From Sandaracinus amylolyticus (GTDB lineage Bacteria > Myxococcota_A > Polyangia > Polyangiales > Sandaracinaceae), in contig NZ_CP011125.1 in assembly GCF_000737325.1 (NCBI RefSeq), positions 4,216,001-4,280,000 of the forward strand: a stretch of 64,000 nucleotides of DNA, read 5' to 3'. Under the pieces are notes generated by a model, which was given only the letters and a program-made list of their open reading frames with translations, made no database searches and was not told the origin of the DNA. Shown one piece after another: positions 27,157 through 43,442 of the stretch. Numbering within the stretch: position 1 is the first letter of the stretch; the number at the start of each line of letters is the position of its first letter. A program made the position numbers and the translations under genes.

Positions 27157-27579
27157 TCACGCAGCGTCGCTCCGAGGAGGAGCGGTCTCGGTCTCCGGCG
27201 CGGAGGCGGGCCGCTCCTTCTTCGTTCCGTCGGCGGCCACAGGCGCGACGATCTGCAGCATCGCGATCTTCCCGATGGCGATCACCGCGACCGTCGCCGA
27301 TGCGGCGTGGAGGAACGCATCGGACGACGCGAACGTCGCGACCGCGAGCATCACGACCGCGGCCGCCTCGACGCCGACGACGAACACGGAGTCGAGGACG
27401 CCCCCGCGCGTGCCGATGCCGATCAGCGCGATGACCAGGACGAACATCGTCGACAGATCGTGGTGGATCCAGTCCGCGATCGAGGCGACGCAGAGTGCCG
27501 CGATCAGGGCGAGCATCCCCACACGCATCGTGCGCTGTGTGATCTCGCGGTCGGTCCCCGAGCTCGTCTTCTCCGCCAT
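27157..27579 (-). CDS. Small membrane protein with about three transmembrane segments
   Basis: ATG 27579 has the Shine-Dalgarno GGAGGGG a few bases upstream. The 140-residue protein has a hydrophilic N-terminus (MAEKTSSGTDREITQRTM), and then hydrophobic segments at about 22-36, 43-70 and 75-110 (VGMLALIAALCVASIA, FVLVIALIGIGTRGGVL, VAVIAIGKIAMLQIV). The tail is Pro/Glu/Thr-rich. It stands alone between the peroxiredoxin gene (convergent) and the Wzc-like gene (divergent). The longer frame upstream is an antisense shadow. Function unknown. Confidence 0.6.
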   Translation of the reverse strand: MAEKTSSGTDREITQRTMRVGMLALIAALCVASIADWIHHDLSTMFVLVIALIGIGTRGGVLDSVFVVGVEAAAVVMLAVATFASSDAFLHAASATVAVIAIGKIAMLQIVAPVAADGTKKERPASAPETETAPPRSDAA

Positions 27580-27663
27580 CTGCCCCTCCGTACACGCGAG
27601 ACGGTACCACGGTGGCCGTCTCGAACGAGGGTTGCCCACTTCTTGCTGAGCTTGCCGCGGGGC

Positions 27664-30117
27664 ATGGTTATGCAAGCACTCTCGACCGCGACCGTGAGGC
27701 ACGAGGCCACAAGAGAAGCGCCCAAGCGCGCAGGGACGCCCATCGATCCTTCGTGGATCCTCGGGATGTTGCGCCGTGGATGGCGCGTGCTCGGAGCCGC
27801 GGCGCTCGGCGGTCTCCTCGTCGGCGGCATCGTCGCGATGCTCGTCGTTCCTTCGACCTGGGAGAGCGAAGCGCTCGTCGTCGCCGACGTCGAGCCCAAT
27901 CCAGCCGACCCCTGGGCGTCGCAGAACGCGCTCAGCGAGGGCGCCGAGCTGATGATGCATCCCTCGACGCTCGCCGCCGTGCGGGCGCGTGTGGGGGCGG
28001 ACGGCACCGTCGAGGCGCTCGCGCGCCGCGTCGAGGCGGAGGAGGATCGCCAGGCAGGCGTGATCCGCGTGACCGCGCGTGATGGATCGCGCGAAGGGGC
28101 GGCCGCCCTCGCGAACGCGATGGTGGACTCGTTCCTCGACGTGCGGCGCGAGAGCGAGCGCGCGCGCCTCGCCGAGCGCGCGCGCCTGCGCCGGCTCGAG
28201 CTGACCGCGGCCGAGCAACAGCTCGCCGACGCACGCAGCGAGTACGACGCGTTCCGTCAGGAGCACGGGATCACCGACCTCAGCGCGCAGCAGGAGGCCG
28301 CGATCACCGAGGCCGCACGCCTGAGCGCGGAGGCGGACGAGGAGAGCGTGGCGGCGATCAGCTCGGCCGCGCGCATGGACGTGCTGCGCCGCGAGGCGCG
28401 GCGTCTCCCTGCGATGACGACGTCGAGCGCGAGCAGCACCGATCTCGTGCAGTCGGAGCTCGCCGAGGCGCGCGCCGAGCTCGCGCGCGCGAGGGCGCGT
28501 TACACGCAGGATCACCCGACGGTGCAGGGGCTCGAGGCGCGCGTCGCGACGCTCGAGCAGGAGCGGCGTCGCGGTGGGCGTGCGCTGCGCACCGACGCGA
28601 CGACGTCGACGAACCCGATCCGCGACGAGCTCGAGGGCAACGTCGCGATCGCGGCGGCGGATCGCGCGACCTCGGCGCAGCGCGAGGAAGGGCTGCGCCG
28701 CCTCGCGGAGCAGGCGCGCGAGCGCGTGCGCGAGCTGACCGAGCTCGAGGGCCAGGCGAGCCTGCTGCTCGCGGCAGTGCGCATCGGCGAGCAGCAGGTC
28801 GAGGCGCTCCGTCGCGACATCGCGCAGGCGGAGGACCGTCTCGGCGATCCGCCTCCGGGCTTCCACGTCACGGCGCGCGCCGCGCTCGCGGACTCGCCGC
28901 TGCCGTCGAAGAACCGGCTGCTCGCGTGGGTGCTCCCGCCGATGCTGTCGCTGCTGGTCGCGTTCGGTCTCGTGTTCTTCCGCGAGCGCGGCGGGCCGCG
29001 CACGCAGACCGCGGCCGAGGTCGCGTGGTGGGGCCATGCGCCGGTGATCGGCACGACGACGTGGCCGCGCGAGCCCGAGGCGCTCGATCTGCTCGTCGCC
29101 GAGCTCGAGGATCTCGGCACCTACGCCGCGGGCCGCACGCTCGTCGTGCCCGCGACGCCCAACGAGAAGGACCTCGCCACCGAGTTCGCTGCGAAGCTCG
29201 CCGAGGCGCCGTGGCTCGCCGCGGGCGTGCTCGACGTCGACGAGTCGCCGCGCAGCGAGCCTCCGCGCGCGCTGCTGCCCGACGACGTGCGGGTGCCGGG
29301 CCACCGCCCGACGCTGCCCATGCCGATGATCGTGACGCCCGCGCCGGTCGACGCGGCGAGCGCGAGCGGCGAGAGCGATCCGTCGACGCGCGTGCGGCGC
29401 GCGACCGTGCAGCTGATGATGGACAACCCGACCGGGAGCGAGCCGTCGACCGAGCTGCCGGTGCTGCCCGAGGCGCCGCGCTCGCGGAAGATCTCCGGGC
29501 GCTTCACCCTGAGCGCGCCGACGGTGCTGGTCGGGCAGGACGTGCGCGTCGGCAACATCGTGCGCGTCGGCGAGGAGCCGGTGCGCACGGCGGCCGCGGT
29601 CTGGACGCGCCCGCCGGCCGAGGCGAGCGCGGAGCAGCGCACGATCCACGTCAGCGGCACCGTCGACGATGGTCGCGGCGCGCCGCAGCCGTTCGAGGTG
29701 CGCGCGGAGGCGCCGGCGAAGCAGGACGCGGTGCTCATGCTCGCGATGCGCATCCTCGGCGACGTCGATCCCGAGGCCGGGCGCGCGACGATGCTCGACG
29801 CGCGACCGCCGAAGCACCGCGCGCTCGACGCGACCGAGTCGCGCGCGCCGCACGAGCAGGCCGTCGCGCTCGCGTGGACCGGTGCGATGGAGGGGCCGAC
29901 GCTGCGCCGCGCGGCGCGCCTCGCGGATCGTGTGATCGTGCTGGTGCGCGAGGGCACGCTCTCGCCGGCCGATCTCGCGAAGCTGCAGGTGCGCCTCGGG
30001 CGCGAGGACGCGATCGGCTTCCTCGTGGTCGGTGCGGACGAGGAGTCGGCGAAGGGCCCGGATCGCGTGGGCGCGGTCGCCGAGTTCTGGACGACGCGCA
30101 AGCGTCTGCCGGGCTGA
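27664..30117 (+). CDS. Wzc/Wzz-like polysaccharide co-polymerase with degenerate tyrosine-kinase domain
   Basis: The 817-residue protein has TM1 at about 43-65, a long periplasmic coiled coil (about 150-390, with Wzz/GNVR-type sequences such as YTQDHPTVQGLEARVATLEQE), and TM2 at about 418-440. The PCP proline motif ADSPLPSKNRLL precedes TM2. In Wzc the cytoplasmic domain is a BY-kinase with Walker A GxGKS. Here the equivalent reads TLVVPATPNEKDLATEFAAKL, and the Asp-rich motif is altered to GVLDVDESPRSEP. A poorly conserved insert of roughly 200 residues follows before ADRVIVLVREGTLSPADLAKL. It may control polysaccharide chain length without kinase activity; the role is inferred. No Wzx/Wzy genes lie near. 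Confidence 0.78.
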   Translation: MVMQALSTATVRHEATREAPKRAGTPIDPSWILGMLRRGWRVLGAAALGGLLVGGIVAMLVVPSTWESEALVVADVEPNPADPWASQNALSEGAELMMHPSTLAAVRARVGADGTVEALARRVEAEEDRQAGVIRVTARDGSREGAAALANAMVDSFLDVRRESERARLAERARLRRLELTAAEQQLADARSEYDAFRQEHGITDLSAQQEAAITEAARLSAEADEESVAAISSAARMDVLRREARRLPAMTTSSASSTDLVQSELAEARAELARARARYTQDHPTVQGLEARVATLEQERRRGGRALRTDATTSTNPIRDELEGNVAIAAADRATSAQREEGLRRLAEQARERVRELTELEGQASLLLAAVRIGEQQVEALRRDIAQAEDRLGDPPPGFHVTARAALADSPLPSKNRLLAWVLPPMLSLLVAFGLVFFRERGGPRTQTAAEVAWWGHAPVIGTTTWPREPEALDLLVAELEDLGTYAAGRTLVVPATPNEKDLATEFAAKLAEAPWLAAGVLDVDESPRSEPPRALLPDDVRVPGHRPTLPMPMIVTPAPVDAASASGESDPSTRVRRATVQLMMDNPTGSEPSTELPVLPEAPRSRKISGRFTLSAPTVLVGQDVRVGNIVRVGEEPVRTAAAVWTRPPAEASAEQRTIHVSGTVDDGRGAPQPFEVRAEAPAKQDAVLMLAMRILGDVDPEAGRATMLDARPPKHRALDATESRAPHEQAVALAWTGAMEGPTLRRAARLADRVIVLVREGTLSPADLAKLQVRLGREDAIGFLVVGADEESAKGPDRVGAVAEFWTTRKRLPG

Positions 30118-30218
30118 CTCCTTGCCGGGCGCGCGCCCGGCGCGCGGACGGTAGGGACCGGCGGGCGATGTTCGAGTGATCGACTCCGAAGCTCGAGCAC
30201 GAGCGCGTCGCCTGCGGG

Positions 30219-31109
30219 TCAGGCGGCGCGCTCGATCGTCTTGGAGATCGCGTCGATCAGCGCGGGCCAGTGCGCCTCGGGCAGGTCGTGCGCGAGGTCG
30301 TCGATGACGCGCAGATCGGCGCCCGGGATCGCCGATGCGGTGGCGCGACCGTGTGCGATGGGCACCAGCGGATCGAGCGCGCCGTGCACGACGGTCGCGG
30401 CGATCTCCAGCGTTCGCAGCGCGGGTGAGCGCGGCGGTGACGAGAGGATCGCATCGAGCTGGCGCGCCGTGCCGAGGCGATAGCTCGAGCGGTCGTACGA
30501 CTCCGCGGCGCGCGCGCGAATGCGTGCCTCGTCGAAGTGCTTCGGACTGCCGATCACGCGGAACAGCTCGACGACCTGATCGAGCGCCTGATCGCGCGTC
30601 CGAGGCACCGGGCGCAGCAGCATCGCGCGTGCGGCCTGCGTCGGAGGCGGCAGTCGGTAGTCGCCCGGGCTCGACATGATCGACGTGAGCGAGAGAGTCC
30701 GACTGCGATGCTCGATGGCGAGCGTCTGCGCGATCATCCCGCCCATCGACACTCCGACCACGTGCGCCGCGCGGATCGCGAGCCCGTCGAGCACGCCGAC
30801 GGCGTCGCGCGCCATGTCGGAGAGCGTATATGCCGGCCGCGCTGCGCCCCACGTGCGGAGCAGGAGCGTGCGCGCGATCGAGGGCACGGGCGCGCCGTGG
30901 ATCTTCGTCGAGAGCCCGACGTCGCGATTGTCGAATCGAATGACGTGGAGACCGAGCGACGCGAGCGACTCGCAGAACTCGGTGCGCCACGCGATCATCT
31001 GCGTCCCGAGCCCCATCACGAGGAGCACGGCGGGATCGCGCGAGTCGCCGAACGTGTCGTAGTGGAGCGTCAGTCCGTTCGAGACGATCTCGGGCATGTC
31101 ACCACTCAC
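30219..31109 (-). CDS. Alpha/beta hydrolase
   Basis: The 296-residue protein has the alpha/beta-hydrolase fold. The nucleophile Ser121 is in GVSMGGMIAQ. The oxyanion/first strand region is LLVMGLGTQMIAW, and RFDNRDVGLSTKI is typical. The Asp in HGALDPLVPIAHG and the His in IDDLAHDLPEAHW complete the expected triad. The sequence is close to 3-oxoadipate-enol-lactonase or proline-iminopeptidase-like hydrolases but the substrate cannot be told. The start overlaps the end of the glyoxalase gene by 11 bases on the same strand, so they form an operon. Confidence 0.88.
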   Translation of the reverse strand: MSGDMPEIVSNGLTLHYDTFGDSRDPAVLLVMGLGTQMIAWRTEFCESLASLGLHVIRFDNRDVGLSTKIHGAPVPSIARTLLLRTWGAARPAYTLSDMARDAVGVLDGLAIRAAHVVGVSMGGMIAQTLAIEHRSRTLSLTSIMSSPGDYRLPPPTQAARAMLLRPVPRTRDQALDQVVELFRVIGSPKHFDEARIRARAAESYDRSSYRLGTARQLDAILSSPPRSPALRTLEIAATVVHGALDPLVPIAHGRATASAIPGADLRVIDDLAHDLPEAHWPALIDAISKTIERAA

Positions 31110-34862: not shown

Positions 34863-35103
34863 CGCGAGAGCACCCTCCGGGAGCCGAGCGTGCTCCCGAG
34901 CAACGCGCAGACACGCGCGCGCTGCGACCGAACCCCGAACGAAGCAGTGAGCGCAGCATAACGAAGCGAGCATCCTCTGGCGCACTTCTCTGGGTGCCTC
35001 ACCGCGCTCCCGTCCCGGCCGGTAGCATCCGTGGATCACCGCAGCAAGCGGGGGAAGCCCCGTGTGTTGCGCGCTCCGAGGCGCGGGGGTAGAGCGCTCC
35101 GCC

Positions 35104-37071
35104 ATGTCGGGAGCGACCCCAGGCACCGAGAGCGCCGGCCCACCGTCCGGTGGTGCGAGCGGGACCACGACGAGCGAGACCACGCGCGATCCGCACGTCG
35201 GGCACCACCACCACGGTGCGCTCGGGACGCTCGCGCTCGGCGCGCTCGGGGTCGTGTACGGGGACATCGGAACCTCGCCGCTCTACGCGCTGCGCGAGTG
35301 CTTCCACGAGTCCTCGGGGATCACGCCGACGCACGAGAACGTGCTCGGCGTGCTCTCGCTCTTCGTGTGGGCGATGACGCTCGTCGTCGTCGTGAAGTAC
35401 ATCGTGTTCGTCACGCGCGTGGACAACGGCGGCGAGGGCGGGATCCTCGCGCTGCTCGCGCTCGTGCTGCCGAAGCGCGGCGGCGCGCGCGTCGGCGCGC
35501 TCGTCCTCATGGGCCTCTTCGGCGCGTCGTTGCTCTACGCCGATGGCATGCTGACGCCCGCGATCTCCGTCGTGTCGGCGGTCGAGGGCATCGAGCAGAT
35601 CGAGGGCATCGGGCACGCGCTCGATCGGTGGATCGTGCCGATCGCGATCGCGATCCTCGTCGTGCTCTTCCTCGCGCAGAAGCGCGGCACCGGCGGCGTC
35701 GGGCTGATCTTCGGCCCGGTCATGCTGCTGTGGTTCGTGGTGATCGGCGCGCTCGGCGCGGTGCAGATCGCGCAGCATCCCGAGGTGCTCGCGGCGATCT
35801 CGCCGCACCACGCGGTGATCTTCTTCGCGCGCCATCAGCTCGTCGGCTTCCTCGTGCTCGGGAGCGTCGTGCTGTGCATCACCGGCGGCGAGGCGCTCTA
35901 CGCGGACATGGGCCACTTCGGCCGGCGACCGATCGTGCTCGCGTGGTTCGCGGTCGCGTTCCCCGGGCTGATCCTCAACTACCTCGGGCAGGGCGCGCTC
36001 CTGCTCGCGCATCCCGAGCACGCGCACGCGCCGTTCTTCTCGATGGCCGCGGGGTGGATGCGCATCCCGCTCGTGATCCTCGCGACGCTCGCGACGGTGA
36101 TCGCGTCGCAGGCCCTCATCTCGGGCGCGTTCTCGCTCACGCGCCAGGCGATCCAGCTCGGCTATCTGCCGCGCCTCGAGATCCGCCACACGTCGAGCAT
36201 GACCGAAGGGCAGGTCTATCTGCCCGAGGTCAACCGCATCCTGATGGTGGCGTGCATCGCGCTCGTGATCGCGTTCGAGAGCTCGAGCCGCATGGCCGCC
36301 GCGTACGGCATCGCGGTGACCGGCACGATGGGCATCACGACGGTGTTGTTCTACGTCGTCGTGCGTAAGTGGTGGGGCACGGCGCGCGCTCTCGCGGTGT
36401 GCGTGCCGATGCTGATCGTGGATCTCGCGTTCTTCGGAGCGAACGTCGTCAAGATCGCGAGCGGCGGATGGGTCCCGATCGTGGTCGCGTTCGGTGTGCT
36501 CGCGGTGATGACGAGCTGGAAGAAGGGACGCGAGCGCGTCGCGCGATTCCTGCAGAATCGCTCGGTGCCGCTCGACGAGTTCATCCCGCGCATCGAGCGC
36601 GAGAGCCCGTTCCGCGTGAAGGGCACCGCGGTGTTCATGACCGCATCCGCGAACGGAACGCCCCCGGTCCTGGTGCACCACTATCGGCACAACCAGGTCC
36701 TGCACGAGCAGATCATGTTGCTCAGCATCCAGGTGCAGGACGTACCCTTCGTGCCCAAGGACGAGAGCGTGACCGTCGACGATCTCGGGCACGGTATCTA
36801 TCGCGTCACCGCCAAGTACGGCTTCATGCAGTCGCCGCGCGTGACCGAGATCCTGCGCGCGGCGGAAAAGCAGCACGGGCTCGCGACGCGCCCCGAGAAG
36901 ACGAGCTTCTACCTCGGTCGCGAGAAGCTCGTGGTCACGAAGAACCCGGGCATGGCGCAGTGGCGCAAGGTGCTCTTCACGTTCTTGTCGAGGAACGCGC
37001 GTCCCGCGTCGGACTACTTCAAGCTGCCACCCGATCGCGTGCTCGAGATCGGCATGCAGCTCGAGCTCTGA
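35104..37071 (+). CDS. kup: KUP-family potassium transporter, first tandem copy
   Basis: Kup proteins import K+ with protons through 12 membrane helices. The 655-residue protein has LGVVYGDIGTSPLYALREC, VDNGGEGGILALLAL, GASLLYADGMLTPAISVVSAVEG, CITGGEALYADMGHFGRRP, and IASQALISGAFSLTRQAIQLG. The cytoplasmic C-terminal domain (about 440-655) is present. The N-terminus contains a His cluster (HVGHHHH). I chose ATG 35104 (MSGATPGTES) over the longer 35062 frame by family length. The second copy starts 1 base after its stop. A 5' leader of about 240 bases separates it from the divergent PEGA gene. Confidence 0.95.
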   Translation: MSGATPGTESAGPPSGGASGTTTSETTRDPHVGHHHHGALGTLALGALGVVYGDIGTSPLYALRECFHESSGITPTHENVLGVLSLFVWAMTLVVVVKYIVFVTRVDNGGEGGILALLALVLPKRGGARVGALVLMGLFGASLLYADGMLTPAISVVSAVEGIEQIEGIGHALDRWIVPIAIAILVVLFLAQKRGTGGVGLIFGPVMLLWFVVIGALGAVQIAQHPEVLAAISPHHAVIFFARHQLVGFLVLGSVVLCITGGEALYADMGHFGRRPIVLAWFAVAFPGLILNYLGQGALLLAHPEHAHAPFFSMAAGWMRIPLVILATLATVIASQALISGAFSLTRQAIQLGYLPRLEIRHTSSMTEGQVYLPEVNRILMVACIALVIAFESSSRMAAAYGIAVTGTMGITTVLFYVVVRKWWGTARALAVCVPMLIVDLAFFGANVVKIASGGWVPIVVAFGVLAVMTSWKKGRERVARFLQNRSVPLDEFIPRIERESPFRVKGTAVFMTASANGTPPVLVHHYRHNQVLHEQIMLLSIQVQDVPFVPKDESVTVDDLGHGIYRVTAKYGFMQSPRVTEILRAAEKQHGLATRPEKTSFYLGREKLVVTKNPGMAQWRKVLFTFLSRNARPASDYFKLPPDRVLEIGMQLEL

Positions 37072-37072
37072 C

Positions 37073-38989
37073 ATGGCCGACACCGCAGCCAGCAGCGCCT
37101 CGCCGTCGCACTCCGGCGCGCACTCGCACGGGAGGCATCACCACCGCACGGGCGCGCTGGCGCTGACCCTCGGCGCGCTCGGCGTGGTGTACGGAGACAT
37201 CGGCACCTCCCCGCTCTACGCGCTCCGCGAGTGTTTCCACGGGCCGCACGCGGTCGCGCCGACGCAGGCGAACGTCTACGGCGTGCTCTCGCTCTTCGTG
37301 TGGACGCTGACGCTCGTCATCGTCGTGAAGTACCTCGGGTTCGTGACGCGCGCGGACAACGGCGGTGAGGGCGGCACGCTCGCGCTGCTCGCGCTCGCGC
37401 TGCCGAAGCGTGGAGCGCGCCCCACGGTGCTCGTGCTGATGGGGCTCTTCGGCACCTCGCTGCTGTGCAGCGAGGGCATGCTGACGCCGGCCATCTCGGT
37501 GCTCAGCGCGGTCGAGGGCATCGGCGGCGTCGCGCACGGGATGCAGCGCTTCGTCGTGCCGCTCGCGCTCGTGATCATCGTCGTGCTCTTCCTCGCGCAG
37601 AAGCGCGGGACCGGGCGCGTGGGCGCGGTGTTCGGGCCCGTGATGGTCGTGTGGTTCGTGACGCTCGGCGCGATGGGCATCTATTGGATCGCGCAGCACC
37701 CCGAGATCCTCGGCGCGCTCTCGCCGCACCACGCGGTCTCGTACTTCGTGCGGAACGGGCTCGAGGGGTTCTGGATCCTCGGCAGCGTCGTGCTGTGCAT
37801 CACCGGTGGCGAGGCGCTCTACGCCGACCTCGGGCACTTCGGGCGCACGCCGATCCGCAACGCGTGGTTCAGCGTCGTCATGCCCGGGCTGATCCTGAAC
37901 TACTTCGGGCAGGGCGCGATGTTGCTCGAGCACCCGGAGCGCGCGGAGGACTCGTTCTACGGCCTCGTCGGCGACGGGTTCCGCATCCCGCTCGTGCTGC
38001 TCGCGACGCTCGCGACCGTCATCGCATCTCAAGCGCTGATCTCCGGCACGTTCTCGCTGACGCGACAGGCGATCCAGCTCGGGTACCTGCCGCGCCTCGA
38101 GGTGCGGCACACGTCGAGCGAGACCGAAGGCCAGATCTACGTGCCCGAGATGAACCGCCTGCTGATGGTCGCGTGCATCGCGCTCGTGCTGGTGTTCCAG
38201 ACGAGCTCGAGCCTCGCCGCGGCGTACGGCATGTCGGTGATGGGCACGATGACCATCACGAGCGTGCTCTTCTTCATCGTCGCGCGCCGTTGGTGGGGCG
38301 CGACGCGCGCAGGCGTGCTGTGCGCGTTGATGCTCGCGGTCGACATCCCGTTTCTGCTCGCGAACGTCGACAAGCTGCCGCACGGCGGCTGGTTCCCGAT
38401 CGCGACCGCGGCGGTGATGCTGGCGATCCTGACGACGTGGAAGGCCGGGCGGGACCGCGTGGGGCGCTTCCTGCGCGAGCGCTCGCGACCGCTCGACGAG
38501 TTCCTCGACGAGGTGGACGCGAAGGATCCCTTGCGCGTGCCCGGCACCGCCGTGTTCATGACGTCGCAGCTCGGCGGCACGCCGCCGGTGCTGCTCCATC
38601 ACTTCAAGCACAACAAGGTGCTGCACCACCAGGTCGTGCTGCTGAGCGTCGTGACCGACGACGTGCCGACGGTGCCGCGCAGCCAGCGCGTGAAGGTGGA
38701 GCGACTGCGCGAGAACTTCTTCCAGGTCACCGCGCACTACGGGTTCATGCAGTCGCCGCGCGTGACGGACATCCTGCGTGCCTGTCACGAGGAAGGGCTG
38801 CACACGAAGCCCGAGGACACGAGCTTCTATCTCGGTCGAGAGAAGCTGGTGATCACGAAGAACCCGGGACTGGCGCACTGGCGCAAGGTGCTCTTCTCGT
38901 TCCTGTCGAGGAACGCGCGCCCCGCGACCGATTTCTTCCGACTGCCGCCCGATCGAGTCGTCGAGATGGGCATGCAGCTCGAGCTCTGA
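37073..38989 (+). CDS. kup: KUP-family potassium transporter, second tandem copy
   Basis: The 638-residue protein is paralogous to the preceding gene and shares the same motifs: LGVVYGDIGTSPLYALREC, ADNGGEGGTLALLAL, CSEGMLTPAISVLSAVEGI, CITGGEALYADLGHFGRTP and SLTRQAIQLGYLPRLEVRHT. The N-terminus again carries a His cluster (HSGAHSHGRHHH). The two genes are separated by a single base and form one transcription unit. The close similarity (many identical stretches) points to duplication and later divergence, possibly for different K+ affinities or pH conditions. Confidence 0.95.
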   Translation: MADTAASSASPSHSGAHSHGRHHHRTGALALTLGALGVVYGDIGTSPLYALRECFHGPHAVAPTQANVYGVLSLFVWTLTLVIVVKYLGFVTRADNGGEGGTLALLALALPKRGARPTVLVLMGLFGTSLLCSEGMLTPAISVLSAVEGIGGVAHGMQRFVVPLALVIIVVLFLAQKRGTGRVGAVFGPVMVVWFVTLGAMGIYWIAQHPEILGALSPHHAVSYFVRNGLEGFWILGSVVLCITGGEALYADLGHFGRTPIRNAWFSVVMPGLILNYFGQGAMLLEHPERAEDSFYGLVGDGFRIPLVLLATLATVIASQALISGTFSLTRQAIQLGYLPRLEVRHTSSETEGQIYVPEMNRLLMVACIALVLVFQTSSSLAAAYGMSVMGTMTITSVLFFIVARRWWGATRAGVLCALMLAVDIPFLLANVDKLPHGGWFPIATAAVMLAILTTWKAGRDRVGRFLRERSRPLDEFLDEVDAKDPLRVPGTAVFMTSQLGGTPPVLLHHFKHNKVLHHQVVLLSVVTDDVPTVPRSQRVKVERLRENFFQVTAHYGFMQSPRVTDILRACHEEGLHTKPEDTSFYLGREKLVITKNPGLAHWRKVLFSFLSRNARPATDFFRLPPDRVVEMGMQLEL

Positions 38990-39265: not shown

Positions 39266-41128
39266 TCAGCTCGCGTCGTCGTCGGCTTCGCGCGCGGGTG
39301 CGAGGCTGTTGCGCCCCAGATAGCCTGCTGCCTGCAGCTTGAAGAGGCGCGCGTAGAGCCCTTCGTTCTCCATCAGCGCGTCGTGCGGCCCCTGCTCGAC
39401 CACTCGGCCCTCGTCGAGCACCACGATGCGATCGGCCATCCGCACCGAGCCGAATCGATGCGAGATGAGCAGCGCCATGCGCTGCCCGCGCGTCTGCTGC
39501 ACGTGCTCGAAGATCTTCACCTCGGCGTCGGGATCGAGCGCGCTCGTCGGCTCGTCGAGCACCAGGATCGCATCGCGCTCGCGCATGAACGCGCGCGAGA
39601 GCGCGATCTTCTGCCACTGACCGCCCGAGAGCTCCTGGCCGCCCTTGAACCACTTGCCGAGCTGCGTGTGGTAGCCCTCGGGCAGCTCCGACACGAACTC
39701 GTGCGCGAGGCCGAGCTTCGCCGCGTCGATCCATCGCTGCTCGTCGTGCCAGTGCTCGACGTCGCCCGCGCCGACGTTCTCGCCCGCCTTCATCCGGAAG
39801 CGCACGAAGTCCTGGAACACCGGCGCGAAGCGATGCCGCAGCGCGTGCACGTCCCACTCGCAGACGTCGAGCCCGTCGAGGAAGATGCGCCCGCGCGGCA
39901 CGTCGTAGAGGCGCGTGATCAGCTTGATCAGCGTCGTCTTGCCGGAGCCGTTCTGTCCGACGAGCGCGATGATCTCGCCAGGCGCGATCGCGAACGACAC
40001 GTTCTCGAGCGCGGGCACCGTCGCGCCCGGGTACGTGAACGAGAGGTTCTTCACGACGAGCCCGGCGCTCGGATCGCGACCCTCGGTCTTCGTGCCCGTG
40101 ATCGTCGTGACGGGGAGCGCGAGAAACGACTCGAGGTCGCGCAGGTAGAGGTGGTCGTCGAGCATCATCCCGAGGCTCGCGAGCCCCTGCGTCACGCCCT
40201 GCTGCGCCTGCCGGAAGATGACGAGGTACATCGTCATCTGACCGAGCGTGAGGTGCTCGTTGACGGTGCGTCGCACGATCCACGCGTACGCGAGATAGAA
40301 CGCGGCCGTGCCGATCAGGTTGAGCAGCGTGCCCCACCAGTTCCGGCGCAGCGTGATCGCGCGCTCTTCCTGCTCGATGCGCAGCGCGATGGTGCGGAAC
40401 CGATCGAGCAGCGGCTCGGCGAGCTCGTAGAGCTTCACCTCCTTCGCGAAGTCCTCGCGCGTGAGCACGGCCTCGAGGTACGCCTGCTCGCGCTGCTCCG
40501 GCGTGCGCTTGCGCTGCTGATCGAAGATCTGCTGCGAGAACGAGAGCTCCGCGACGAACGCCGGCAGCCCCGCGAGCACGACGAGCAGCACGGCCCACCA
40601 CGAGAGCCCGAGCAGCACGACGATCGACGCCGCGAGCGTCACGAGGTTGCGCGAGACGACGAAGACGCCCGTCACGAGGTTGTACGGGCGCACGCCCGCG
40701 TCGCGCCGCGCGCGCGTGAGCCGATCGTGCACCTCGGGGTCTTCGAAGTGCGCGAGCTCGAGCGTCGTCGCCTTCGCGAGGATCATCTCGGCGACGCGGT
40801 TCGCGATGCGCGTCTTGAGGATCGCCTGCGCCGCGCTCTGCGCGCGCTGCGCCGCGACGAGCAGGCCGATCAGCGAGCCCTCGAGCGCGACGAGCATCCA
40901 CAGCGTCGGCTTGTACTGGCCCCAGCCGGTCTCGCGCAGCGGCAGCGCGAGCACGACGGTGTCGACGATCCACTTGCCCACGTACGCCGCGGCCGCGGGG
41001 AGAACGCCGATCGCGATCGTGCAGATCACCATCGCGATCGTCGCGCGCGGGGCGGCGCGGAACGCGAGCCGCAGCACCCACAGGCTCGCCGCGATGCGCC
41101 CGCCGCCGTTCGAGCCGGTCGTGCTCAA
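39266..41128 (-). CDS. ABC exporter, fused permease and ATPase
   Basis: The 620-residue half-transporter of the MsbA type has about six membrane helices (about 15-320), then the nucleotide-binding domain. The Walker A is ALVGQNGSGKTTLIKLI, the Q-loop region FAPVFQDFVRFRM, the signature LSGGQWQKIALSRAF, the Walker B AILVLDEPTSALD and the H-loop LISHRFGSVRMAD. It would act as a homodimer and export a lipid, lipid-linked sugar or peptide. The start overlaps the end of the upstream glycosyltransferase-like/sulfotransferase fusion gene by 4 bases (ATGA), so it is translationally coupled to it. The substrate is inferred from this partner only. Confidence 0.95.
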   Translation of the reverse strand: MSTTGSNGGGRIAASLWVLRLAFRAAPRATIAMVICTIAIGVLPAAAAYVGKWIVDTVVLALPLRETGWGQYKPTLWMLVALEGSLIGLLVAAQRAQSAAQAILKTRIANRVAEMILAKATTLELAHFEDPEVHDRLTRARRDAGVRPYNLVTGVFVVSRNLVTLAASIVVLLGLSWWAVLLVVLAGLPAFVAELSFSQQIFDQQRKRTPEQREQAYLEAVLTREDFAKEVKLYELAEPLLDRFRTIALRIEQEERAITLRRNWWGTLLNLIGTAAFYLAYAWIVRRTVNEHLTLGQMTMYLVIFRQAQQGVTQGLASLGMMLDDHLYLRDLESFLALPVTTITGTKTEGRDPSAGLVVKNLSFTYPGATVPALENVSFAIAPGEIIALVGQNGSGKTTLIKLITRLYDVPRGRIFLDGLDVCEWDVHALRHRFAPVFQDFVRFRMKAGENVGAGDVEHWHDEQRWIDAAKLGLAHEFVSELPEGYHTQLGKWFKGGQELSGGQWQKIALSRAFMRERDAILVLDEPTSALDPDAEVKIFEHVQQTRGQRMALLISHRFGSVRMADRIVVLDEGRVVEQGPHDALMENEGLYARLFKLQAAGYLGRNSLAPAREADDDAS

Positions 41129-42615
41129 TCGTCGACTTCGAGGTTCGCGTGCTTCTCTGCCATGCGCTCGCTCAGCCGCTTTCCTTTGTGCGGGAACGGC
41201 TGCTCGGGCACGGGCACGCCGAGGAAGGGCGCGAGCTTCTCGTATCCGTCGCCGCGCGCGATGTCGAGCACGAGGAGATCGTCGGGCCGGTCCGCGAAGT
41301 AGCGCGTGACGTTCTCGACGTGACGGCGATACGCGCGCTCGAAGCGCGCCTCGTCGAACTCGTAGCTCGCGTACACGGCCGCGCGCAGGAAGCGGCGGAT
41401 CTCCATGTGCACGCGGTGCTCCTCGGCCGCGATCGGATCACTCGTCGACGCTTCTTCGTACGCCGAGCGACCGGTCCAGTGGTTGCGACAGCTCTGGAGC
41501 CACGCGGGCGTGTCGCGCACGGTGAGCACGAACTTGCTGCCGGGGTAGAGACGGTCGAAGTCCTCGAAGTACGGCGCCGTCGTGATGTCGGTCATGCCGT
41601 CGTAGTGATCGAGCAGCGGGAAGCGCGCGTCGCCGCGCACGAGCGTGTCGAGCGTCGCGCGATCGGTCGGGTAGTGCACCGTGTCGAAGCCGAGCACGTG
41701 CAGCGCCGCGGTGAGCGAGCGCGTGCCGGTGCGCGAGAGGCCGAGCCCGAAGACCTTCGGTTTCTTGGGTGCCGGACCAAGTTTCGTCGGATCGCCGTTC
41801 ACCGCTGCCTCGACCTCCTCCATCGTGACCTGTCCGCTCTGCTCGAGGCCCATGTTCCGGACCTCGACCTCCGCGATGTACGGGAGGTTGCGGATGTAGA
41901 GCTCGACGTGCTTCGCCTTCGCGTCCTCGGGCACCGTGCTCGCCGCGTGCTGCACCGCGCGTCGCGCGACGTCGTAGTCGGTGCCTTCGCCCCAGCGCGC
42001 CATCGACGCGGCGAGGCGCTTCTTCTGGAACTCGGTGCGGCTCCGCAGCTCGCGCAGCGCGTACTTCGCGAAGATGTCGGTGTAGCGCTGGAAGTGGTCG
42101 TGCAGGATGTGGAAGCTCTTCAGTTGCTTCTCGAGCGCGAGCTCGGCGAGCGCCATGTTGCGCAGGCGCGACTCGGGGCGGAGCACGTACGCGAGATCGT
42201 CGAGCGGCTCGGGAATCGCGCGCATCTTGTCGACCACGTCGATGCGCGTGACGTGCACGCCGCAGTGGATGCGGCCGCGGAAGCGATCGCGCACGTAGCA
42301 GTCGACGTACGGGAGCGTGTTCGCGTCGAGGAACGGACGCATGTCCTCGAGGATCAGGCAGTCCGCGTCCATGTGGACGACGTGATCGCAGTGGTGCTCG
42401 ATCTCGAGCATCTTGCGCACCGCGAGCGCGAAGGGCTTCACGTCGCGGATCACGTGCGCGCGCGTCGGCTTCACGTGCTCGAGGGCGAGCTGCAGCGCGA
42501 GGTCGCTCGTGCGCTCTCCGACGGTGCGGAACACGAGCTCGATCGGTCGCGCGCCCGGCGGCGCGTAGGTGCCCTGGAGCGTCTCGACGACGCCTTCTTC
42601 GATGCTGGCTCTCAC
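41125..42615 (-). CDS. GT-A-like glycosyltransferase domain fused to sulfotransferase domain
   Basis: The N-terminal half (about 1-230) looks like a nucleotide-sugar glycosyltransferase with a DxD motif in HVVHMDADCLILEDMRPFLD (residues 83-85). FGRIHCGVH-like RGRIHCGVHVTRIDVVDKM is consistent with a GT-A fold. The C-terminal half (about 285-496) resembles the Sulfotransfer_4 family: the PAPS 5'-phosphosulfate loop GLGLSRTGTRSLTAAL (about 290-305) and the 3'-phosphate motif SKFVLTVRDTPAWLQSCRN. The two halves are joined in one 496-residue chain. The gene is in an operon with the upstream sulfotransferase (ATGA overlap) and the downstream exporter. The GT assignment is weaker than the sulfotransferase one. 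Confidence 0.75.
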   Translation of the reverse strand: MRASIEEGVVETLQGTYAPPGARPIELVFRTVGERTSDLALQLALEHVKPTRAHVIRDVKPFALAVRKMLEIEHHCDHVVHMDADCLILEDMRPFLDANTLPYVDCYVRDRFRGRIHCGVHVTRIDVVDKMRAIPEPLDDLAYVLRPESRLRNMALAELALEKQLKSFHILHDHFQRYTDIFAKYALRELRSRTEFQKKRLAASMARWGEGTDYDVARRAVQHAASTVPEDAKAKHVELYIRNLPYIAEVEVRNMGLEQSGQVTMEEVEAAVNGDPTKLGPAPKKPKVFGLGLSRTGTRSLTAALHVLGFDTVHYPTDRATLDTLVRGDARFPLLDHYDGMTDITTAPYFEDFDRLYPGSKFVLTVRDTPAWLQSCRNHWTGRSAYEEASTSDPIAAEEHRVHMEIRRFLRAAVYASYEFDEARFERAYRRHVENVTRYFADRPDDLLVLDIARGDGYEKLAPFLGVPVPEQPFPHKGKRLSERMAEKHANLEVDD

Positions 42616-43442
42616 GTGCTCTCTTCACCCCACGCGTACGCGCGGTTCAGGTCTCCGGCGACCTCGTCGAACGCAGCGCGCGCGTCGTCGCTCAGCTCGC
42701 GCTTCCAGCGCAGGTCGAGGACGATGCCGCGCGGATGCGCGCCGTAGTGATCGCGCGTCTTGTCGGTGAGCGCGACGACGCCGCCCTCGTTGCCGCGCAT
42801 CAGGAACTGCGTGCCGTTGTTGCCGCCGAGCGGGTGCTGCTCGGTGGTCCACGGCGCGCTCATCGCGGGCGCGTAGTCGACGCCGAGGAACGTCGCGACC
42901 TCGCGCATCGTGGGCTCGGGCGCGGACGCGAGCGCCTCGTAGCGCACGCGCAGCACGGTGCCCGGGAAGCGCGCGGCGAGCGCCTCGGTCGCGCGGATCT
43001 GCGCCGCCCAGTCCTCGGCGTGCTCGCGCGCGCTTCGCTCGGGGTACTTGCGAAGGCGCGAGCACACGACGGCGCGTCCATCGCGCGCGAGGAAGATCAG
43101 GTGTCGATCGACGTCGCGCCGCGACAGCGTCTCGAGCTGCTCGCCCGTCCACGAGAGGTTCTTGGTCGAGTCGACGACGATGCGGCGCCCCGTGCGGCGC
43201 ACGAGCGTCGCGTAGAGGTCCTCGCCCGGCGCGCGGCCGAGCTCGCCCCAGATCGGACAGCTCGGCCCGCACAGCTTGCAGACGCGCTTCTTGAGCGGCT
43301 TGCTCTCGTCGCCGAGGAAGAGGCTCTTGCGCGCCTCGCCCGCGTAGAAGACCTCCGGGTGCGCGCCCAGCATCAGGCCCAGCAGCGTCGAGCCCGAATG
43401 GCCCGCGCCGCCGATGAACACCACCTTCTCGCGCTCGCGCAT
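42612..43442 (-). CDS. Sulfotransferase family protein
   Basis: The 276-residue protein has a P-loop-like PAPS-binding site GGAGHSGSTLLGLML (residues 11-25), where PAPS is the sulfate donor. The 3'-phosphate-binding region is HLIFLARDGRAVVCSRLRK. A Cys cluster CKLCGPSC (55-62) is present in several bacterial members. AQIRATEALAARFPGTVLRV and RYEALASAPEPTMREVATFLG are family-like. It is the first gene of the operon with the fusion gene (4-base overlap) and the ABC exporter. The acceptor (sugar, lipid or tyrosine) is unknown. Confidence 0.88.
   Translation of the reverse strand: MREREKVVFIGGAGHSGSTLLGLMLGAHPEVFYAGEARKSLFLGDESKPLKKRVCKLCGPSCPIWGELGRAPGEDLYATLVRRTGRRIVVDSTKNLSWTGEQLETLSRRDVDRHLIFLARDGRAVVCSRLRKYPERSAREHAEDWAAQIRATEALAARFPGTVLRVRYEALASAPEPTMREVATFLGVDYAPAMSAPWTTEQHPLGGNNGTQFLMRGNEGGVVALTDKTRDHYGAHPRGIVLDLRWKRELSDDARAAFDEVAGDLNRAYAWGEEST

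Follow-up and report, generated by a model that had tools for sequence, protein, structure and literature searches.

A Wzc-like protein of Sandaracinus amylolyticus with a fused, predicted BY pseudokinase domain, encoded outside polysaccharide clusters

The closest described systems to the protein analyzed here are PCP-2 proteins that carry, or are bound by, a BY-kinase-like domain. EcpK of Myxococcus xanthus is described as a stand-alone BY pseudokinase that binds the PCP-2 protein EpsV and for which a scaffold role has been proposed (PMC12004946), and the same source names fused PCP-2/BY pseudokinases, SMc01795 and others, which are thus already in print. PssP2 of Rhizobium leguminosarum, a fused PCP-2 protein reported to be involved in EPS chain length, is described as having no Walker A, A′ or B motif and no Tyr cluster (PMC4182512), and PslE of Pseudomonas aeruginosa has been described as a Wzc homologue (PMC6813494). 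With canonical Wzc, as found in E. coli and encoded in its own genome at about 4785800, the protein studied here shares its domain order, its PCP region and a predicted BY-kinase fold linked to TM2, but it differs in having no P-loop, Walker B Asp or Tyr tail, in carrying a disordered insert and in having no wza, wzx or wzy near its gene. It resembles EcpK in combining a predicted BY-kinase fold with the absence of Walker motifs and C-terminal Tyr, yet it is a fused single chain encoded outside an EPS cluster, whereas the EcpK/HfsB type is stand-alone and encoded with a PCP-2 partner in a polysaccharide cluster. Unlike our protein, which is matched by no kinase model and carries a 200-residue insert, PssP2 has 586 aa and still matches the AAA Pfam model PF13614.

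The window, that is, the whole stretch of 64,000 nucleotides analyzed here, corresponds to G000:C1:4216001-4280000 of the S. amylolyticus genome, which consists of one contig of 10,327,335 bases. The open reading frame at 27664-30117 (plus strand) was confirmed, with 817 codons and with coding constraint throughout, as third-position GC stays at 0.87-0.98 between about 27757 and the stop codon. Translation may start at Met1, Met3 or slightly further in, and homology begins at about residue 22. The product is a PCP-2a-like protein with a fused, putative BY pseudokinase domain, and the Wzc-like architecture proposed in the earlier note is borne out by both the sequence and an AlphaFold model. 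In the model, two transmembrane helices flank a periplasmic alpha/beta and coiled-coil region in the PCP-2 layout: TM1 spans residues 40-61 (27781-27846), a hydrophobic helix; the periplasmic PCP region (27856-28905), delimited also by profile and Foldseek matches, contains long coiled-coil helices at residues 143-247 and 318-393; and the Pro motif (SPLPSK) precedes TM2 (residues 411-442 together, 28894-28989), with TM2 itself modeled at 416-442. The cytosolic domain that follows, delimited by AlphaFold, structure comparison and dN/dS, is BY-kinase-like and Rossmann-type in its predicted fold, with an N-terminal half at residues 446-526 (28999-29241) and a C-terminal half at residues 731-813 (29854-30102). 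Splitting the two is the long mid-domain insert that had also been noted, a Pro/Ser-rich segment of about 200 residues (527-730; 29242-29853) that is predicted to be disordered, with 527-694 and 696-730 below a pLDDT of 50.

Sequence searches with this protein register mainly its PCP region. The Pfam scan returned only Wzz, weakly (0.0004, below the curated cut-off), the NCBIfam scan returned TIGR03007 (chain-length determinant) at 1.7e-21, below that model's own cut-off, and the EpsV model NF041864 matched weakly (0.027); the cytosolic part matched no kinase model in either Pfam or NCBIfam. A profile of 26 relatives reached the structures of PslE (PDB 9v75, 9v6l; 5.3e-13, the best sequence-profile match) and Wzc (9e-11) through the PCP region, which is the only part of PslE compared. 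With the protein alone, phmmer against the PDB gave coiled-coil and weak Wzc matches only, and hhalign found no significant match between the pseudokinase family profile and eight canonical Wzc kinases (probability 0.6%). Structure prediction, which the earlier note had put forward as a check, points to Wzc. Full-length Wzc provided the top Foldseek matches to the full-length model (9.4e-13) and the best VIA match (Z 15.9 over 366 residues spanning 29-798, at an rmsd of 11.7), with further matches to WzzE and KpsE. The modeled cytosolic domain has alpha/beta strands at 461-464, 491-496, 518-523, 733-738, 756-762 and 784-789, mostly confident. For the domain-alone fold comparison, we modeled the cytosolic portion of L053, a short relative, in place of the protein's own domain, which has the same strand and helix order at high pLDDT. 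The best 16 VIA entries for the L053 domain were all BY-kinases (Z 9.9-12.5), the next, unrelated entry scoring 6.3, and Foldseek ranked Wzc first at only 7.2e-3, with no E-value below 0.001. On these models, the domain after TM2 is a BY-kinase-like fold, though sequence profiles alone miss it.

The catalytic motifs expected of such a fold are gone. At the position of the Walker A motif (TLVVPATPNEKDLA; 29134-29178) there is no Gly/Lys P-loop, and residues 496-505 read PATPNEKDLA, as the earlier note had it. This is no misreading of an intact ATP-binding site, as GK[ST] is absent from the whole cytosolic part and from that of all 28 aligned family members, none of those examined being intact. 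Where the P-loop would be, most members of one lineage of the family carry VGAT..E and those of the other RTLVVPAT..E, and 24 of 28 have E at the nearly invariant position of E501. The Walker B equivalent (AVALAWTGAMEGP; 29860-29898) has Thr739 in place of Asp, a column that across 26 family members reads N in 14, D in 5, T in 3, E in 3 and G in 1; a D.P expression matched 5 of the 26, mostly as WDGP variants and never as DSPP or DTPP. This bears out the changed Asp motif of the earlier note, with the qualification that the Walker A′ equivalent (AAGVLDVDES, 29218-29247) keeps D524 and D526, the first in common with 18 of the 28 relatives in the alignment (7 have a gap there) and the second with 2 of 28. 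Only three Tyr (194, 280 and 487) occur in the 817 residues and none in the last 120, and the family C-terminus ends instead in DR.G.v..FW, here DRVGAVAEFW (30061-30090), which replaces the Tyr-rich tail. Canonical Wzc of the same bacterial family, by comparison, retain GK[ST] and Tyr-rich tails in 8 of 8 cases, with 7-8 Tyr in the last 70 residues; one of them is the intact Wzc of the same genome (G000:C1, about 4785800). The kept D524 and D526 and the near-invariant E501 are what might be expected of an active, non-canonical kinase binding ATP without a classical P-loop, but the domain has no Gly-rich loop, conserved Lys, conserved Walker B Asp or Tyr-rich tail, and we consider this alternative very improbable. 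Judged from its motifs, the kinase domain is catalytically dead, a BY pseudokinase, and its inactivation is an old, clade-wide trait and not a recent loss in this gene. The inactivation proposed in the earlier note therefore stands as regards the motifs, but the loss is not particular to this gene, and the domain is under strong purifying selection.

That selection was estimated against the orthologue in a second species of the genus (G008), which is 92% identical. The dN/dS was 0.14 for the whole gene, with dS of about 0.28 gene-wide, 0.137 for the PCP region, 0.206 for the insert, and 0.069 and 0.052 for the N- and C-terminal halves of the pseudokinase domain; all are single pairwise estimates, and the two halves hold 4 and 2 non-synonymous differences, respectively. 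The canonical Wzc kinase domain gave 0.024 in the same genome comparison. The pseudokinase domain is thus the most constrained part of the gene (0.05-0.07), which indicates that the gene is not decaying. A wzc pseudogene in early erosion would account for the lost catalytic motifs and the orphan location, but it is contradicted by this selection test, by the open frame, by an orthologue with the same neighbourhood in a second species and by the conservation of the motifs across distant relatives, and we give it next to no credence.

The same comparison singles out the 5′ end of the gene. Within 27300-30300, the longest stretches identical to G008 are 27440-27573 (134 bp) and 27659-27768 (plus strand; 110 bp, covering the first 35 codons with no synonymous change). 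They fall where the coding regions of two divergently transcribed genes open, and in the Wzc-like gene the first 28 codons show no synonymous change although dS over the whole gene is about 0.28. A shared regulatory element overlapping both divergent starts is possible. Searching 27400-27900 against Rfam gave no match at gathering level and two under an E-value of 1, both far below the gathering scores. The divergent gene (27157-27579, minus strand) encodes a 140-aa membrane protein that has no Pfam match and is kept beside the Wzc-like gene in G008.

Members or fragments of the kinase-dead family, at least one per genome, were found in 10 of 10 genomes of the same bacterial family, with further relatives coming from named MAGs of the Myxococcota and from Corallococcus carmarthensis. 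Among 144 genomes of the class, 65 had a match at E ≤ 0.001 and only 11 exceeded 250 bits; the best matches of the remaining genomes reach at most 57 bits and are probably ordinary PCPs. A single-protein query of genome contigs confirmed no close relatives of the protein, and tblastn against plasmids gave no match. Judged from these sequences, the family splits into two lineages, A and B, with our gene in B. In a tree of 19 rows, a branch with 100/99 support sets apart our gene, the copies of its genus, L078 and the MAG proteins with long inserts; this tree excludes the fragments L060, L062 and L076 as well as L075, L026, L067, L074, L071, L064, L066 and the canonical Wzc rows. A first tree, from which the fragments were removed and which retains more long branches, shows the corresponding fork more weakly (90/85), with L075 included. 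L078 and L035 form long branches in the trees. Both lineages coexist in G000, G031, G040 and G141. The AU test rejects (p-AU 7.6e-7) a grouping of the copies in the window and its genus with the lineage-A genes of that genus, and with it a recent duplication of the latter.

Wherever neighbourhoods were annotated, which covers some of its loci, lineage A is located in polysaccharide clusters. Those of Sandaracinaceae contain OPX, an NRPS-like formyl-transferase/luciferase-like protein and PssD/PssE glycosyltransferases, that of G031 contains PGT, OPX, Wzx and a weak Wzy match, and that of G130 contains OPX; of the proteins of L117, L118 and L119, those tested matched nothing related to polysaccharides. 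The NRPS-like gene lies just before the lineage-A PCP in L037:9840-14000 with L038:1-510 and in L043:5506-10119, and encodes formyl-transferase, adenylation, luciferase-like monooxygenase and carrier domains; a PPTase gene is also present in the L043 polysaccharide cluster.

Lineage B lies outside polysaccharide clusters, and this placement is a trait of the lineage. In all 10 loci with usable downstream sequence, which come from other organisms, mutA follows the lineage-B PCP on the same strand, with 4-290 nt (mostly 45-84) between the PCP stop and the candidate mutA starts; mutB follows mutA, and MeaB was found in 9 of 10. Directly upstream, 9 lineage-B loci have an opposite-strand membrane protein, which lies some 6 kb away in L078 and to which the 140-aa protein of the window is by eye unrelated. 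The gene caller, whose training set was GC-rich loci, overlooked many genes in lower-GC ones; key lineage-B neighbours were redone by tblastn. Among the annotated neighbours (Pfam names in L078 and L070) there are no polysaccharide genes. The mutA of L078 (L078:10596-14830) is poorly conserved relative to other lineage-B loci (about 42-44% identity), and mutB is about 77% identical. Large inserts occur in lineage B at the place of the 527-730 insert. Our literature search found no paper joining methylmalonyl-CoA mutase, chain length determinant and myxobacteria, and no description of lineage B with its insert outside polysaccharide clusters. At the level of gene order, the association with methylmalonyl-CoA mutase is real.

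The S. amylolyticus genome departs from this arrangement. Its mutA, mutB and meaB occupy about 4571100-4575800, where the lineage-B gene is missing and no copy of the kinase-dead family was found beside them; the copy in the window adjoins peroxiredoxin and DUF6929 genes, a setting shared by G008 and G009. The Sandaracinus copies have therefore moved away. The gene order, the neighbourhoods free of polysaccharide genes and the large insert that belongs to lineage B would all fit a repurposed PCP, in which lineage B forms a membrane scaffold tied to the mutase operon and no longer serves polysaccharide assembly, for example by holding or regulating the B12 enzyme or another partner through its disordered insert. 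The Sandaracinus copies, however, left the mutase neighbourhood and are still under strong selection, gene order may reflect inheritance instead of function, and the PCP periplasmic region is retained, as are the Pro motif and the coiled coil; we regard this reading as unlikely, if worth keeping in view. More doubtful is the broader proposal that lineage B is a distinct kinase-dead Wzc class outside polysaccharide clusters, co-transcribed in several Myxococcota with B12-dependent methylmalonyl-CoA mutase genes, which would couple envelope polymer assembly to mutase metabolism, or be controlled by it, via the insert.

The absence of Wzx and Wzy neighbours claimed earlier was upheld, as a Pfam scan of 40 proteins of the window gave no match to models of OPX, Wzx or Wzy. 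Elsewhere in the window, 35062-38989 (plus strand) holds a tandem pair of K_trans (Kup-type) potassium transporter genes, and at 41125-43442 (minus strand) two neighbouring sulfotransferase-domain proteins adjoin an ABC transporter. Three OPX loci occur in the genome, all of them close to some other PCP-like match, and the window gene is a fourth PCP, without OPX; its protein would hence have to act in trans or on something else. An accessory subunit that joins and modulates the rings of the lineage-A PCP (G000:C1, about 4967800) or of canonical Wzc (about 4785800) would fit this distribution, as well as the fold that the protein has in common with the lineage-A protein. Lineages A and B are, nonetheless, old and separate, a genus-level duplication is rejected, and such a role seems to us rather unlikely, slightly more so than repurposing.

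The explanation we favor, and hold to be probably correct, is that the gene encodes a PCP-2 co-polymerase whose fused BY pseudokinase acts as a non-catalytic scaffold, independently of phosphorylation. By analogy with EcpK and PssP2, the pseudokinase domain may lie as a scaffold beneath the membrane ring, where it would maintain or determine how the PCP oligomerizes through protein-protein contacts and not through cycles of Tyr phosphorylation. Candidate contact surfaces, all conserved, are LRRAAR, the C-terminal DRxG.v..FW and, following TM2, the stretch E..W...PV.....WP, and a partner may dock on the long disordered insert. The protein may regulate chain length, as the earlier note suggested, with the insert as a possible new control input. 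As its gene comes with neither a polymerase nor a flippase nor an outer-membrane exporter, the protein would act in trans on a polysaccharide pathway encoded elsewhere; the location of the gene without polysaccharide neighbours, and of lineage B by methylmalonyl-CoA mutase genes, leaves room for a non-polysaccharide role.

EcpK/EpsV recently exemplified the question of how PCP-2 proteins function without phosphorylation cycles. Here, a clade-wide, putatively kinase-dead Wzc in one chain, in a genome that also encodes an intact Wzc, provides a natural comparison, and a lineage placed outside polysaccharide clusters and linked to the mutase genes raises the question of whether PCP rings may have been recruited elsewhere.
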